Source: a virus. Taken from it: 24,921 bases of DNA. Below are positions 3,685 through 24,259 of the stretch, piece by piece (the stretch's first letter is position 1; each line of letters begins with the position of its first letter). The DNA lies in the IMG/VR virus record IMGVR_UViG_3300027791_000125, positions 1 through 24,921 of that record. The stretch is one strand, 5' to 3'. The position numbers and the translations under genes are program-made. Below the pieces are notes generated by a model. It was not told the origin of the DNA. It did not search any database and saw only the letters and a list, made by a program, of their open reading frames with translations.

Positions 3685-5514
3685 ATGGCTGAAAATGAAT
3701 CAGGCTTTGACACTTTAAAGGCTTTCTCTCAACCCGAAGGTACTTTTTCTTTTGAACCTTATGAAGGTTATGTAGAGGCTAATCAAGTCCTAAGAAATGA
3801 TGCGAAGAGTCAAATTAATACTCAATTAGCTGAACAAGCTGTTAATGAAACATTTGATTATAATAAGATAGCTAATCAATTTGCTGGTCAATATATTCCT
3901 GTAAGACAAGCTAGTGAAGAACAATCTGGTATTATTGCGAAACAATTAGGTTTAGGTCAAAGATATAGTGCTGAGGACATGAAAGCTCAAATTGAAAAAA
4001 CATTAGGTCCTCTCCCTGAAAGAAATCAAAAAAGAAGAGCGGTAAATTTTCTTGTTAATTCACTAAGAGCTAAGACTCCATATAAAGGAGCAGCTGGTGT
4101 ACTAGATGTTTTATTACAATCTTATTCAGTAGATATGACTCAAGAACAAGCTTTAGAAATAGAACAACTTAAACATAAAATGTCTATTGGAGAGTTAGCT
4201 GTTAAACAAGCACAAGATGCAAACGAAGCAGTTCTTGCTAAAGAAGCGGAGTTTTATTTAAAAAAAATGGGCATGGATGATAAATACTTACAAGAATATT
4301 TAAGTTTCACTGCTGATCTTAGTCTAAAAAATGCTGCCTTTGATATTGAGAAAGAACTTAACAGAATTAAAGGAGCTCAAGAACTAATTAGTAATCCAGG
4401 AAGATTAGATGCAAATATTTCTTACATGGTAAATGGTGAATACGTTACAGCTGCTTCAAGAAGAGTTTTAAATGAAGATGGTACATATCAATACAAGTTG
4501 ATCGATGCAGACGGAAACTTTACAAGACCCGTGCCAATTAACCCAGAAACGGGATTTCCTGATTTTTATTTATCACCAAAAGACTTACCTATTACCGAAG
4601 CACAAAAGGCAGCAAATACAGGGATTTCAGGTATTAGCGGAGCTAAACAGGCTGAATTAACAGGTGACATGTTTGCTCTTGATAGAGCTGCTGTCACACT
4701 TCAAGATATTTTAACTGCTGATTATAATGCTTTACAAAATGGAACCTCTTACTTAGGTATTCAAGGTGTAATAGCTAATTTAAAACAAGAAGCTTTTTAC
4801 ACTTTTGAAGATATTTTAAATGGTGTAAAAGGCGGATCAGGAACAGCTTTATATGACGAAGGTCAGGTTTTATTTAATAAAGACCAAGCTTCCACTAACG
4901 AAGAAAGAGTTCCTGATAATAGCATTTATCAAATGACCTCCTTTGAGGTTCCTACTAGTGGTAAATTAGACTCAATTAAGTCTTTTGGTAAAACGAAAAC
5001 AGTGAGTAAAGATGTAAATTTAGCTATGTTAATGGACCCTATGTTTTATACCGGTTTGGGATATGATCCTACTTATGCACAAAATAAAGTAAGAGAAAAT
5101 ATCATTGTATATGCTTTAGCTAGAGCTCAAAAACCAACAGGAAGATTAAACGTAGACGATGTTAAGCGTGCTTCTACTTCAGTGAATATTTCAGGTATGC
5201 AGTCTGATGAACGTGTAAGAGCTCAATTACAAGAAGTTTTAAAGTTTATCAATAGAGGTATTGAAAGTATTTATAATCAAGGTTATCAACAAAATTATGA
5301 AGGTAAGAATACAAATATATTTGATAATAACCCAGCTGTAACTGATGTAAGAAAAAGATATGAGCAGTATTTAGGTATTATACCATCCAATCAAGAACCT
5401 AACCAAAACCAGAAAAAACCTACTGTAGAAGAAGATGTAATTATAACTGATCCAGGTGGAGAAGAATCTATAAGTTTATCCAATGAACAGATATTTGGTG
5501 TAGGGAATTTGTAA
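3685..5514 (+). CDS. Large virion protein (609 aa), likely internal/ejection
   Basis: A long, mostly helical, charged protein without signal peptide or recognised catalytic domain. Residues about 330-362 (from ALDRAAVTLQDIL to SYLGIQGV) resemble the C-terminal third of the 123-aa protein at 9910-10281, including 24 identical nucleotides (4747-4770 and 10210-10233). The sequence upstream of the start is GGGGGTAATC, a weak SD. The stop overlaps the next start by one base (TAATG), coupling it to the 908-aa protein. Pairs of very large proteins between head/tail genes and lysozyme are typical of podovirus internal core proteins delivered with the DNA. The role here is inferred from that layout only. 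Confidence 0.7.
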   Translation: MAENESGFDTLKAFSQPEGTFSFEPYEGYVEANQVLRNDAKSQINTQLAEQAVNETFDYNKIANQFAGQYIPVRQASEEQSGIIAKQLGLGQRYSAEDMKAQIEKTLGPLPERNQKRRAVNFLVNSLRAKTPYKGAAGVLDVLLQSYSVDMTQEQALEIEQLKHKMSIGELAVKQAQDANEAVLAKEAEFYLKKMGMDDKYLQEYLSFTADLSLKNAAFDIEKELNRIKGAQELISNPGRLDANISYMVNGEYVTAASRRVLNEDGTYQYKLIDADGNFTRPVPINPETGFPDFYLSPKDLPITEAQKAANTGISGISGAKQAELTGDMFALDRAAVTLQDILTADYNALQNGTSYLGIQGVIANLKQEAFYTFEDILNGVKGGSGTALYDEGQVLFNKDQASTNEERVPDNSIYQMTSFEVPTSGKLDSIKSFGKTKTVSKDVNLAMLMDPMFYTGLGYDPTYAQNKVRENIIVYALARAQKPTGRLNVDDVKRASTSVNISGMQSDERVRAQLQEVLKFINRGIESIYNQGYQQNYEGKNTNIFDNNPAVTDVRKRYEQYLGIIPSNQEPNQNQKKPTVEEDVIITDPGGEESISLSNEQIFGVGNL

Positions 5515-13224: not shown

Positions 13225-14748
13225 ATGGCAGATCATATAAAATTCAGAGATATATTTAGTGGCTTGACTAGAGCTCATGGTGTTTATCATAAGGGTGAAG
13301 TTAAGGAAAATGGTAAAGTTAGTGGTAAAGCTTTTATTTTAAAAGAAGACGTCACTGATATTCATTGGAAAAATCATATAGAAGGTATTGAGCCTTCATT
13401 AGGAATTGTTCCAATACGAGATGATAGCACTTGTAGTTGGTGTTGTATTGATGTTGATGACTACACTCTTGATATTTTTAAAACAATTACAAACATTAGA
13501 AAATTAAAAATTCCAATCGTTCCCTGTCGATCTAAATCAGGTGGATTACATTTATTTATTTTTATTAAAGGAAGTATCACAGCTTCTCTTGCCCGGAAGA
13601 AATTAAAAGAGATTGCTTCGGTCTTAGGTTTTGCTCACTGTGAGATCTTTCCAAAGCAAACTGAACTTGATTCAAAGCGTGGAGACACAGGTAATTTTTT
13701 AAATCTACCTTACTTCAAAGGAGATTTAAGCGGAAGATACTCAATTGATGATAAAGGTGAGTCAAGAACCATGGAACAGTTCTTCGAGGCTGTAAATCAA
13801 TATGCAATCATACCAGAGGACTTTCAAAACATATCTGTACAGTCCTTAAAACCGAAAAAGACCTCTTTTGATGGTCCTCCTTGCATAGAAATCCTTCAAA
13901 ACATAGGTATTTACGAGGGTGGACGCGATGATGCGGTATTTCACTACTGTTGTTATGCTAAAAAGAAGTTTCCCACGGACCAATGGCAAAATGAAGTGTT
14001 TAATTTTAATACTGCTTACTGCAAACCTCCAATGGGTTATGATCAAGTCAAGCAAAAAATAGATCAACACGAAAAAAAAGATTATGGATACAAATGTAAG
14101 GATCAACCAATGATGTCTCACTGTGATAGTTCTAAATGTAGAGTAAGAAAATTTGGTATAGGCAGAGATGATATGGATATGTCTATTGAAAACTTGACAA
14201 AGCTAGAGTCAGATGAATCTGTATGGCATTTAGATGTAGATGGTCATAGAATTACAGTTACCACTGATGAGCTGATGGATCAAAAGTTATTTAGGAAAAA
14301 AGTATTAGAAACAAAAACTACATTACCTGTTGAAATGACTAAGCGGGATTATGAAGCTCGTATTAGAGAACTATTAGATACAGTTGAAATAGTGAAGATG
14401 CCTTATGAAGTTACTAAAGAAGGTAGATTTAATGCTCACCTGGATGACTTTATTTTTAATCAAGCTATTGCAGATGATATTCAAGAAATTATGAACCACT
14501 GTATTTATAAAGAAGAAAATAAAGTTTTCTTTCAGCTATCCTCTTTGGAGAGATATTTAAGAAAGAATCAATTCAAAGAATTTAGCACAACTCAAATGGG
14601 TTCTATTATTAGAGATAGAGGTGGAGATAGTAAACGTACGAGACTTAATTCCAACACAGTAAAGAATTTGTTTTGGATACCTGATCCTCAACCTCAAGAA
14701 GAAAAGAAATTAAAAGTACCTAAGGTAGATAATGATACCCCTTTCTAA
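13225..14748 (+). CDS. Archaeo-eukaryotic-type primase (AEP, TOTE-like)
   Basis: The protein has the catalytic core of archaeo-eukaryotic primases. CIDVDDY holds the metal-binding D-x-D (Asp76 and Asp78 from ATG 13225), and SKSGGLHLFIF holds the S-x-x-x-H nucleotide-contact motif about 26 residues later. Further on, HCEIFPKQ and GNFLNLPYF are typical of the TOTE-type branch. A Cys/His cluster (CKDQPMMSHCDSSKCRVRKF) sits around two thirds along, and the C-terminal part may be winged-helix-like. It should make RNA or DNA primers for the polymerase encoded downstream. I chose ATG 13225; an in-frame GTG at 13216 is possible, and neither has a good SD. Its end overlaps the UvrD-like helicase by 17 bases. 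No DnaB-like helicase domain is fused. Confidence 0.85.
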   Translation: MADHIKFRDIFSGLTRAHGVYHKGEVKENGKVSGKAFILKEDVTDIHWKNHIEGIEPSLGIVPIRDDSTCSWCCIDVDDYTLDIFKTITNIRKLKIPIVPCRSKSGGLHLFIFIKGSITASLARKKLKEIASVLGFAHCEIFPKQTELDSKRGDTGNFLNLPYFKGDLSGRYSIDDKGESRTMEQFFEAVNQYAIIPEDFQNISVQSLKPKKTSFDGPPCIEILQNIGIYEGGRDDAVFHYCCYAKKKFPTDQWQNEVFNFNTAYCKPPMGYDQVKQKIDQHEKKDYGYKCKDQPMMSHCDSSKCRVRKFGIGRDDMDMSIENLTKLESDESVWHLDVDGHRITVTTDELMDQKLFRKKVLETKTTLPVEMTKRDYEARIRELLDTVEIVKMPYEVTKEGRFNAHLDDFIFNQAIADDIQEIMNHCIYKEENKVFFQLSSLERYLRKNQFKEFSTTQMGSIIRDRGGDSKRTRLNSNTVKNLFWIPDPQPQEEKKLKVPKVDNDTPF

Positions 14749-16467: not shown

Positions 16468-18326
16468 GTGCTTTACAAAACCCTTTATTTGCTCCTCCGA
16501 GTGAATGGGTATGTCCTGAAAGTATTGACTACAAAGGACAATCACCTGTTGCTATTGATTTAGAAACTCACGATCCAGGCATCAAGGACCACGGGCCAGG
16601 ATGGGCTACAGGTCATGGTAAAGTTGTTGGAGTTGCGATTGCCTGGGAAGGCTTCAAAGGTTATTTTCCTATCGATCATGATGCACCAGGCAACTATGAT
16701 AAAAAAGTTTTTATGAGACAGTTTCAAGATCTACTAGACAGATGCCCTGAAATTGTTTGTCACAATGCCATGTATGATGTCGGTTGGATGAAACGTATGG
16801 GTCTAAAAATTACTTCTAAGATTTGGGATACAATGCTTATGGCTCCTATCCTTGATGAAAATAGAATGCGTTACAGTTTAAATGAATTATCAAAAGATTA
16901 TCTTGGAGAAAAGAAATCAGAAGCTCTTCTTTATGAAGCTGCTAAAGAATGGGGTGTGGATGCTAAAGCTGACATGTGGAGACTGCCACCACTTTATGTA
17001 GGTCCTTATGCAGAGCAAGATGCAGAGCTTGCCTTAAAGCTCTATCATATTTTTCAAAGAGAAATTATTGCACAAGATTTAACTTATATAAATGAGTTAG
17101 AGCACGAAGTCCTTCCTGTCTTAATCGATATGAAATGGAATGGTGTTAAAGTTGACGTAGACCAGGCAGAACAAACAAAGAAAACTTTATCTATTAAAGA
17201 GAATAGTTTTTTAAAAAACATTAAAGACAAAACAGGAGTCACTGTGAATGTTTGGGAAGCTAAGTCTATTGCAAAGATGTTCGATCAACTCGATCTGCCC
17301 TATGATCGAACTGAATTAACGGGAGCTCCAAAGTTCGATAAGTTATTCCTCCGTACTCATGAGCACCCGTTGGTTCAACAAGTTGCAGAAGCCAGGGAAC
17401 TTAATAAAGCAAGAACAACATTTATAGATACAATTTTAAAGCATTCTGTGAATGGTCGTATTCATGCAGAGATTAACCAGCTACGAGGTGATGGAGGCGG
17501 AACAGTAACAGGAAGATTGAGTTACAATACTCCGAACTTACAACAAGTCCCTTCCTCTAAGATTCTCGGACCACTGATCAGATCTTTATTTAAGCCAGAA
17601 GAAGGCGCTCAATGGGGTTCTTTTGACTATTCGCAACAGGAACCAAGACTTGTAGTACACTTAGCTAGTTTAACTGCTGGTGGACTTAAAGGCGCTGATG
17701 ATTTCGTTAAAGCCTATCAGCAAGATCCTAATACAGACTTCCACACGATGGTATCGGAAATGGCTAAGATAGATCGTAAGAAGGCTAAAACAATTAATTT
17801 AGGTTTATTTTATGGTATGGGTAAAAACAAATTAGCTAGTCAGCTAGGTGTTACACTTGGTGAAGCTGAAGATCTATTTGATAAATATCATAATCGTGTT
17901 CCTTTTGTAAAAGAAATGATTGAACGAACTATGAAGAAAGCAGCAGATGTAGGTCAGGTAAGAACTTTACTTGGTCGTAAGTGTCGATTTAATAAGTGGG
18001 AACCAGCCAGGTATGGAATTCATAAACCACTGACCAGGGACGATGCTGAACGAGAGCATGGCAAACAAATTAAAAGAGCTTTTACTTACAAAGCATTAAA
18101 TAAAATTATTCAAGGTTCAGCTGCGGACATGACTAAAAAGGCTATGGTAGATTTGCACAAAGAAGGTATTATTCCTCACATTCAAGTTCATGATGAGTTG
18201 AACTGTTCTTTTTATAGTGAAGCAGAGAAAAATAAAATATTAGAAATAATGAAGAATGCAGTAGAGCTTCAAGTACCTATCAAGCTTGACGCGGAAGTGG
18301 GGCCATCATGGGGCGAAGCAAAGTAG
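16464..18326 (+). CDS. polA: Family A DNA polymerase with 3'-5' exonuclease
   Basis: The 620-aa protein has a proofreading domain: Exo I AIDLET (Asp32, Glu34), Exo II CHNAMYD (Asn101, Asp105), Exo III YAEQD (Tyr182, Asp186). The Pol I fold follows: TGRLS (349-353), motif A FDYSQQEPR (Asp388), motif B with Arg438, Lys442, Leu446 and Tyr450 at the canonical spacing, and motif C VHDE (575-578). There is no 5' nuclease domain. Leu446 aligns with Phe762 of E. coli Pol I, a residue that sets dideoxynucleotide discrimination and varies among marine phages. An insert at about 510-538 is usual for phage enzymes. It replicates the phage genome. The start is in an ATGA overlap, and the end overlaps the next gene by 19 bases. 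Confidence 0.95.
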   Translation: MSALQNPLFAPPSEWVCPESIDYKGQSPVAIDLETHDPGIKDHGPGWATGHGKVVGVAIAWEGFKGYFPIDHDAPGNYDKKVFMRQFQDLLDRCPEIVCHNAMYDVGWMKRMGLKITSKIWDTMLMAPILDENRMRYSLNELSKDYLGEKKSEALLYEAAKEWGVDAKADMWRLPPLYVGPYAEQDAELALKLYHIFQREIIAQDLTYINELEHEVLPVLIDMKWNGVKVDVDQAEQTKKTLSIKENSFLKNIKDKTGVTVNVWEAKSIAKMFDQLDLPYDRTELTGAPKFDKLFLRTHEHPLVQQVAEARELNKARTTFIDTILKHSVNGRIHAEINQLRGDGGGTVTGRLSYNTPNLQQVPSSKILGPLIRSLFKPEEGAQWGSFDYSQQEPRLVVHLASLTAGGLKGADDFVKAYQQDPNTDFHTMVSEMAKIDRKKAKTINLGLFYGMGKNKLASQLGVTLGEAEDLFDKYHNRVPFVKEMIERTMKKAADVGQVRTLLGRKCRFNKWEPARYGIHKPLTRDDAEREHGKQIKRAFTYKALNKIIQGSAADMTKKAMVDLHKEGIIPHIQVHDELNCSFYSEAEKNKILEIMKNAVELQVPIKLDAEVGPSWGEAK

Positions 18327-23144: not shown

Positions 23145-23468
23145 TTACATATTAGCTTTAATCCATTTACCTATTTTAGAATGACACAATAATTCTGTAA
23201 TAAAATTACTGTAAGAATTAACAACAGTTTCTTCTTCTTTTTCTTTGAGATGATATTGATAATAACCTACGTGTAAAAACTCATGTATTAAAACATTAAC
23301 AGCATCTGGACCGCCTGTTTCCATCATTTCTTTATCTAGGTATATTTTATAAGGTGGTTTAACTACAAAAGTACCTTGAGCTTCAGATACCTCATACATA
23401 ATGTCATGAGGACACAGAACTAACTCAACAGTAAAAGGCCCTATAGTTACAAACTGAGGCAACTTCAT
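23145..23468 (-). CDS. Short HExxH zincin-type metalloprotease-like protein
   Basis: The 107-aa protein has the zinc-binding HEFLH (residues 62-66) within VNVLIHEFLHVGYYQYHL. Glu residues around 78-80 in a following helix (KEEETVVNSYSNFITELL) are candidates for the third ligand. The N-terminal half is beta-rich (FVTIGPFTVELVL; YKIYLDKEMM). It is a minimal zincin, as found in many phages, with unknown target; a proteolytic role in host takeover or virion maturation is possible. GGGAG before the ATG supports the start. It is antisense, sharing the 239-base spacer with the terminase block. Confidence 0.8.
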   Translation of the reverse strand: MKLPQFVTIGPFTVELVLCPHDIMYEVSEAQGTFVVKPPYKIYLDKEMMETGGPDAVNVLIHEFLHVGYYQYHLKEKEEETVVNSYSNFITELLCHSKIGKWIKANM

Positions 23469-23538
23469 TTCTTGTTTCTCCCTATAACATTATTCTACAG
23501 AAATATAATCTAAACTCTACCCAAATTCCCAAAAAGCG

Positions 23539-23636
23539 TTTACATATTTACAAGATTGCTAGAATATAACTATATAGCGGGTTCTAGCTGTAAATAAGTT
23601 GTTCCCTAGGATAATGTGGGATATTTACAGTTTACA
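23539..23636. repeat. Cluster of TTTACA motifs in the terminase-block upstream region
   Basis: TTTACA occurs at 23539-23544, 23547-23552, 23624-23629 and 23631-23636, and inverted (TGTAAA) at 23589-23594. The two pairs have spacings of eight and seven bases. Five copies in under 100 bases is far above chance for this composition. The cluster lies in the 239-base non-coding spacer between the zincin and terminase genes. They may be operator sites or, less likely, origin or packaging iterons. Confidence 0.5.
23547..23576 (+). promoter_or_regulatory. Candidate promoter of the terminase block
   Basis: TTTACA (23547-23552), an 18-base spacer and TATATA (23571-23576) could act as a sigma70 promoter; the -35 matches five of six. 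A TATAAT at 23678-23683 nearer the gene is another possible -10, without a good -35. The -35 is itself one of the repeated TTTACA motifs. Confidence 0.35.
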
Positions 23637-23645
23637 ACTTTTTAT
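23588..23645 (+). promoter_or_regulatory. Two interleaved inverted repeats (pseudoknot or alternative hairpins)
   Basis: CTGTAAATA (23588-23596) pairs with TATTTACAG (23622-23630), with a TCCC/GGGA pair (23603-23606 with 23618-23621) nested inside. AAGTTGT (23596-23602) pairs with ACAACTT (23634-23640), which is followed by TTTATT. The arms interleave, so both stems together would make a pseudoknot, or the two would be exclusive, the second being terminator-like. Located about 65-120 bases before the terminase start. Confidence 0.5.
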
Positions 23646-23707
23646 TGAAAACATTAGCTTTTTTGTTGTTAATAAGTATAATTTAGACAAATATTAAGTA
23701 AAAAAAC

Positions 23708-24259
23708 ATGGCAAATGTACCTCATATAACAGAAAAACAACGCAAATTTGTGGAAATTTTGATCACAAAGGGCACTTTTCAGAGTGGAAAAGATTGTGCT
23801 ACTGAAGCTGGGTACGAAGAAAGCTGTGCTACTGTGATGGCAAGTAAATTACAGAACCCTAAATATTATCCTCTAGTAGTGACTGAAATAGAAGCAAGAC
23901 GTAACGAGTTATCTAGAAGATATTCCATTAATTATAAATCTCATTTAGCTGCTTTAGGTAAATTACGTGACGAAGCCGTAGCTGCTGGTAATTTTACCGG
24001 GGCGATTGCAGCAGAGAAATACCGTGGTATGGCTGCTGGTTTATACATTGACAGAAAAGAAATTCTTCATGGAAGTATTGACCAGATGACTGCCAAGGAT
24101 GTAGAGGAGAAGCTTAGTGAATTACGAAAAAAATTGCAAGAAAACGGAGACAATGCCAAAATTATTGAATCCGACTCATTACAAGGGGAACCTGTCGGAA
24201 GCGATAGCTCTGACGTGGTTGCTCAAGAAGGGCAACTTAGTATTCAAGACCATTCATGA
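23708..24259 (+). CDS. terS: Terminase small subunit
   Basis: The 183-aa protein starts with the DNA-binding part seen in many phage small terminases: HITEKQRKFVEILITKGTFQ, then a helix-turn-helix-like region (CATEAGYEESCATVMASKLQ), then helices (YKSHLAALGKLRDEAVAAGN; AIAAEKYRGMAAGLYIDRK), ending in an acidic, disordered tail. The small subunit recognises the packaging site and passes DNA to the large subunit, which is not in the window and may lie just to the right. There is no strong SD before the ATG. Its last 107 bases overlap a nuclease gene in another frame. Confidence 0.8.
   Translation: MANVPHITEKQRKFVEILITKGTFQSGKDCATEAGYEESCATVMASKLQNPKYYPLVVTEIEARRNELSRRYSINYKSHLAALGKLRDEAVAAGNFTGAIAAEKYRGMAAGLYIDRKEILHGSIDQMTAKDVEEKLSELRKKLQENGDNAKIIESDSLQGEPVGSDSSDVVAQEGQLSIQDHS

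Follow-up and report, generated by a model that had tools for sequence, protein, structure and literature searches.

Does a short non-coding spacer that carries the same hexamer five times, immediately upstream of the small terminase subunit gene (terS) of a phage, act in packaging, in replication or in transcription, and is it read as DNA or as RNA? The window, by which we mean the whole stretch of DNA that was analysed, is a linear virus record of 24,921 nt. Its genes include those for PolA, a UvrD-like protein, an SNF2-like protein and an AEP-type primase, and they follow the order seen in Pelagibacter phage HTVC023P: SNF2 helicase (on the minus strand), two early genes, primase, UvrD, PolA and terS. 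The window PolA is 49–53 % identical to those of HTVC023P, HTVC027P and 023Pt_psg01. The spacer between the flanking ORFs extends from 23469 to 23707 (239 nt, 27 % G+C), and is bounded on its left by a metallopeptidase-like gene (Table 1) whose place is taken by other genes in the L010–L081 relatives.

The repeats and the conserved element that contains them

The five TTTACA sites, one of them inverted, and the two interleaved inverted repeats listed in a preliminary description of this DNA are all present to within one base. The direct copies start at 23539, 23547, 23624 and 23631 and the inverted copy, TGTAAA, at 23589. In one arm pair CTGTAAATA (23588–23596) is complementary to TATTTACAG (23622–23630), in the other AAGTTGT (23596–23602) is complementary to ACAACTT (23634–23640), and base 23596 is common to the left arms of both. 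None of 5000 Markov sequences of equal composition contained five copies of TTTACA, but five copies of any hexamer occur in about 30 % of such sequences, so that the clustering by itself is weak evidence and a comparison with relatives is needed. It is the conservation seen in that comparison, rather than the clustering alone, which indicates that the cluster is real.

The repeats are part of a non-coding element of about 175 nt, located at about 23489–23664 (Table 1). Free variation between close relatives would have spoken against the preliminary description, and the opposite was found: among eight near-identical contigs there is no difference at any of the 239 spacer positions, although the flanks there are 92–99.7 % identical. 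In 72 further loci, where TerS is 60–65 % identical and the upstream genes are different ones, the block of about 175 nt is retained, in the order box A, pair B, AT-rich spacer, inverted copy D, a variable zone of TTTACA-like words and box F (three of these loci, L016, L059 and L067, begin inside or past the element). The first 114 nt of the element align without gaps across 44 distinct sequences. Box A has no more than two substitutions in every relative whose contig extends to it, site B is changed to GTTACAGAGTTACAA in L019/L022-type relatives, and the AT-rich spacer is fixed in length and variable in sequence; site E varies more than any other part of the array and is in every case rich in TTTACA-like words. 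When loci were scanned with a pattern for the B–D core that tolerated spans of 49–79 nt, the blocks TTTACATATTTACAA and TGTAAATAAGTTGT gave the same span, 64 nt, at each of the 154 loci found, many of which are duplicate stretches of about 90 contigs. The terS gene begins 62–106 nt downstream in 153 of these window-family loci, and the remaining one stops 11 nt after the core.

Table 1. Parts of the element and adjoining features, with their positions in the window
Feature	Positions	Strand	Remarks
Divergent metallopeptidase-like gene, HEFLH motif	23145–23468	−	Neighbour, outside the element
Box A, most conserved left block, ATTATTCTACAGAAATATAATCTAAA	23489–23514		Two mismatches to the family consensus
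Site B, TTTACA direct pair with 8 bp period, GTTTACATATTTACAA	23538–23553	+	Near-invariant
AT-rich spacer, CTATATAGCGGGTTCTAGC in the window, TATATATATATC tract in relatives	23554–23588		35 nt in 154/154 loci
Site D, inverted copy, TGTAAATAAGTTGT	23589–23602	−	Almost unchanged across 44 distinct sequences
Site E, second direct pair, TTTACA at 23624 and 23631	23622–23640	+	Sequence comparison
Box F, T-rich right block, TTTTTATTGAAAACATTAGCTTTTTT; TTTGTTGAAAAATAAGGCTTTTT in relatives	23639–23664		Conserved
TATAAT, possible −10 for terS	23677–23682	+	Sequence only; no good −35 at 16–18 nt
terS, small terminase subunit gene	23708–24259	+	PHROG 51 and 641

The element is present once in each of 18 long records. 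It does not behave as coding sequence: a 109-residue frame found in relatives is interrupted by three stops in the window, and the first, second and third codon positions account for 19, 16 and 12 variable columns, with no excess at the third. Matches resembling box A in L098 and L099 fall within coding sequence and are attributed to chance, and a DNA similarity search of phage records with the spacer gave nothing beyond short chance matches. The repeats belong to a DNA control site, present once per genome and under strong conservation, that is maintained near terS by a large family of SAR11-type marine phages.

Related phages keep the plan but use different words

HTVC023P, HTVC027P, 023Pt_psg01 and two uncultured groups have the same plan written in other repeat words, that is, a direct pair, an AT-rich spacer, more repeats (of which usually one is inverted) and a T-rich tract analogous to box F. 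A homologous block that precedes terS in HTVC023P and about 80 of its relatives uses the word CTAGGAAA, arranged as an 8 bp pair with further copies 44–63 nt on. In phage 023Pt_psg01 the word is TGGCACA, present as pairs that are separated by an inverted copy. HTVC027P and its relatives have GTTACAATG-type words near positions 0, 8, 51, 62, 72 and 82 and do not always have an inverted copy. The words are GGTAATG in L088/L290-type phages, and GGTAGTG or GGTAATG in G032 and G029. Within a genome the words tend to change in concert, from TTTACA to GTTACA, from CTAGGAAA to CTAAGAAA at all sites in L246 and L247, and from GTTACAATG to GTCTCAATG, although the concert is imperfect since some members retain mixed words. 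Several groups have the plan enclosed by inverted repeats of 16–37 nt, which are perfect over 23 bp in L290, about 22 bp long in G032 and, in L190, 37 nt long (76 %); outer arms of 36 and 9 nt occupy the same place in DSL-LC04. An outer inverted repeat in the window family is not significant (P about 0.7). An invertible switch between the outer repeats is not supported, the orientation being uniform in the loci inspected by eye.

The position of the element relative to terS differs between groups. In the window and HTVC023P families terS lies 0.1–0.2 kb downstream, and in DSL-LC04 0.59 kb downstream; in HTVC027P, psg01 and the L088/L290 phages terS is inverted and the element is found 0.3–0.65 kb past its 3′ end. 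The two are within about 0.7 kb of each other in the window, HTVC023P, HTVC027P, psg01, L290 and DSL-LC04 groups, and 5–5.8 kb apart in G029 and G032. By comparison, the element is always about 3–6.6 kb downstream of polA, in constant orientation to the replication genes. A role confined to the terS transcript, as its promoter or leader only, is ruled out because terS is inverted or 5–5.8 kb away in some of these groups.

Some further features of the neighbouring regions were observed. Several groups with an inverted terS have tandem repeats of the AAGCTACAAGC or CAAGCCACAAGC type upstream of that gene, including L090 (3934–4158, minus strand), L091 (5142–5381, minus strand) and L102 (4130–4260). 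In loci L302–L364 terS is preceded, at a distance of about 40 nt from its start, by a compact conserved block, CTTGTAATCACAAGTAAAnTTACTTATATTTAC, which contains TTGTAA-N17-TATATT with an ATG about 10 nt further on; from its sequence it is likely to be a leaderless terS promoter. Metallopeptidase-like genes with an HExxH motif adjoin the element on either strand in three groups, represented by the window, L088 (1051–1374) and L449 (6850–7245), the last of which has a weak match to Pfam M78/IrrE. A 76-residue ORF beginning MKKYIHVNQHVIRSNKKNN is present between the UvrD gene and polA in G001 (17413–17643), G003 (13300–13530) and G017 (4509–4787), though not in the window, and its product is 92–95 % identical between phages as against 72–84 % for the adjacent proteins, a pattern suggestive of either recent transfer or unusual constraint. 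The G045 (L472/L475) primase is matched in two adjacent stretches, residues 1–321 and 333–521, about 5 nt apart on the contig, and appears to be encoded by a split or frameshifted gene. A sharp module boundary just after polA is evident between G044 (about 15.3–16.4 kb) and G027 (about 20.8–21.8 kb).

Weighing RNA, transcription, packaging and replication

A pseudoknotted leader or attenuator had also been proposed for the interleaved repeats, with a search for covariation in related phages as the check, and neither reading is borne out. The helices can pair in 48.6 % of cells, compared with 47.9 % in shuffles and up to 52.6 % in slid versions, and there are related phages in which the element does not lie upstream of terS; no covariation was detected in the window family by RNAalifold (−3.1 kcal/mol, with no pair changed on both sides), and folding of the single sequence gave no improvement over shuffles (z −0.29). 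A broader version, in which transcription of the element yields a structured RNA with the outer inverted repeat as its closing stem, seems very improbable. The outer arms do covary in the HTVC023P family, where double-sided changes occur in one or more sequences at 13 of the 27 predicted pairs, but a single protein reading both arms would account for this equally well; moreover, the window-family arms are not significant and do not covary, in the L290 group the arms change on one side only and do not form wobble pairs consistently on either strand, and a covariance-model search with the element found no Rfam family. We favour DNA sites over RNA. As DNA, the array could be a transcription control region, with operators for a regulator at the early/late junction overlapping promoters that use TTTACA as −35 and TATATA as −10. 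TTTACA is indeed near the −35 consensus and is 16–18 nt from TATATA in the window family, and an M78-like or HExxH metallopeptidase gene stands next to the element in three groups. Nevertheless we regard this as improbable: the promoter scan gave no excess, the words CTAGGAAA, TGGCACA and GGTAATG of other groups are not −35-like, and the plan is kept where terS is inverted or far away and has a likely compact promoter, TTGTAA-N17-TATATT, of its own. Packaging and promoter roles need not be mutually exclusive, since the pac site and promoters overlap in phage SPP1.

The remaining part of the preliminary description, that the repeats resemble operators or the iterons of a replication or packaging site, agrees with words in two orientations at fixed geometry that often change together and are conserved without coding. 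For a site that is single-copy and strict in geometry, is conserved without coding or RNA pairing and exists in related groups with other words, the reading that we consider likeliest, at a little below even chance, is a pac-type packaging-initiation site read by TerS. Packaging of the phage genome would start at this one site in the spacer, where TerS oligomers would bind the TTTACA words through their N-terminal helix–turn–helix (HTH) domains, contacting the direct pair on the left, the inverted copy in the middle and the second pair on the right, while the AT-rich spacer and A/T tracts would bend the DNA into a compact complex. We infer that TerL would then make its first cut nearby and that packaging would continue in headful mode. 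Genome-length records break at differing places elsewhere than the element and published HTVC023P-type genomes circularise (PMC9599517), both of which are compatible with headful packaging. Contig starts, which are indirect evidence of termini as they derive from assemblies, are scattered, with none recurring at one base, and no termini were seen at the element; a cos site with unique ends was rejected as there is no recurrent contig end and genome-length records are cut elsewhere. Points against the pac reading include this lack of a pile-up of contig ends, the 5–5.8 kb that separate the element from terS in G032 and G029, an orientation that follows the replication genes rather than terS, and the long flanking inverted repeats, which are not usual for a pac site.

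The main rival is an iteron-type replication origin, in which a phage initiator would bind the direct and inverted words and open the AT-rich tract, a possible candidate being the AEP-type primase or some other protein of the replication module; we consider it rather unlikely, although several observations favour it. Repeated words stand beside AT-rich and T-rich tracts as in SPP1 oriL and oriR, and the position downstream of polA and the orientation relative to the replication genes are constant. HTVC027P and G029 have different words and dissimilar replication proteins (primase 29 %, UvrD 34 % identity) despite TerS proteins that are 66 % identical, and the window and G003 share both the word and similar replication proteins (primase 72 %, UvrD 82 %) with TerS at 60 %. 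Residues specific to the GTTACA group are also most numerous in the primase (19 columns). Against an origin, cumulative GC or AT skew shows no consistent turn at the element in seven long genomes, although the skew proved uninformative on this question, and the comparison of G027 with G044 separates the two modules: these have the same word, TerS proteins identical over 167 residues and right halves with 91–97 % DNA identity, but their primase, UvrD, PolA, SNF2 and two more early proteins are only 26–60 % identical (G044 being possibly a chimeric assembly). The word has thus stayed with the terS side, which overturns a first impression that it follows the replication proteins. For the pac reading, the TerS model has an N-terminal HTH with helices at residues 27–33 and 41–48 (confidence about 90 in the HTH), and in a Foldseek search its N-terminal domain matches the DNA-binding domain of SF6 G1P, an SPP1-like TerS (TM score 0.84 on the target, probability 1.0, E-value 0.07). 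When 12-residue segments of seven proteins in 17 genomes were compared with word similarity, TerS residues 41–52, coincident with the predicted recognition helix at 41–48, gave the highest correlation of any TerS segment (rho 0.75) and ranked second among all 1991 segments; the word is tracked equally well by parts of the primase (0.77) and of UvrD (0.75), and the correlations have no simple P value because the 17 genomes are related. Some word changes occur with the TerS recognition helix unchanged, and among protein distances in the HTVC027P group, where the word was extracted for part of the members only, no protein stood out as the reader.

Known sites and the significance of the element

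In phage P1 the pac site, about 160 bp long, has several copies of a short hexamer at each end, and the element is likewise a hexamer-repeat site, but with different words. The SPP1 pac site (pacL–pacC–pacR; PMC6316719, PMC4856287) overlaps promoters and the start of its terS, and its binding involves two flanking subsites (PMC6316719). The element resembles it in having a TerS with an SF6/SPP1-like predicted HTH, circularisable genomes, a non-coding location that in the window and HTVC023P families immediately precedes terS, and separate clusters resembling TerS sites on either side of an AT-rich stretch; unlike SPP1 pac, it has regular TTTACA-type words at exact spacing, inverted repeats flanking it in several groups and a location far from terS in one group, and it is a candidate site predicted from sequence. 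Lambda cosB (R3-I1-R2-R1), which has the TerS word three times, a bend between R3 and R2 and poly-dA/dT tracts in I2 (PMC4856287), is similar in that a word recurs at set positions on either side of a bend, close to A/T tracts, but nothing like the cosN cut site or a unique genome end was found at the element, contig ends being scattered. SPP1 oriL and oriR consist of direct repeats and an AT-rich unwinding element (PMC6316719), and the element shares with these and other iteron-type origins its direct repeats adjoining an AT-rich region; it differs in that no initiator gene was recognized and in that the G027/G044 word is not linked to the replication proteins. The SPP1 and lambda analogies hold, neither amounting to membership of the class.

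In the open-licence papers searched we found no description of the element, or of a packaging site or replication origin of these phages, and it appears to be previously undescribed. Phage packaging sites and origins are already known as a kind, and what is new here is the regular array of words, their concerted replacement and the frequent outer inverted repeats. It is conceivable, if distinctly unlikely, that these define a new class of phage cis-element, a cassette of 175–235 bp, often bounded by long inverted repeats, with five to seven copies of a short word at fixed positions, the copies being exchanged together from one lineage to another without a change in geometry; such a cassette could serve both replication and packaging, and its word changes could be driven by competing phages or satellites. 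The element offers an exact 200 bp target for work on the packaging site or replication origin of these phages. If it is a packaging site, the repeat word would mark the specificity of TerS in a few bases, and the concerted exchange of words with unaltered spacing would supply naturally occurring variants of TerS/DNA specificity. Such variants would be of use, as the binding of TerS to pac has proved difficult to measure in vitro (PMC9611059).
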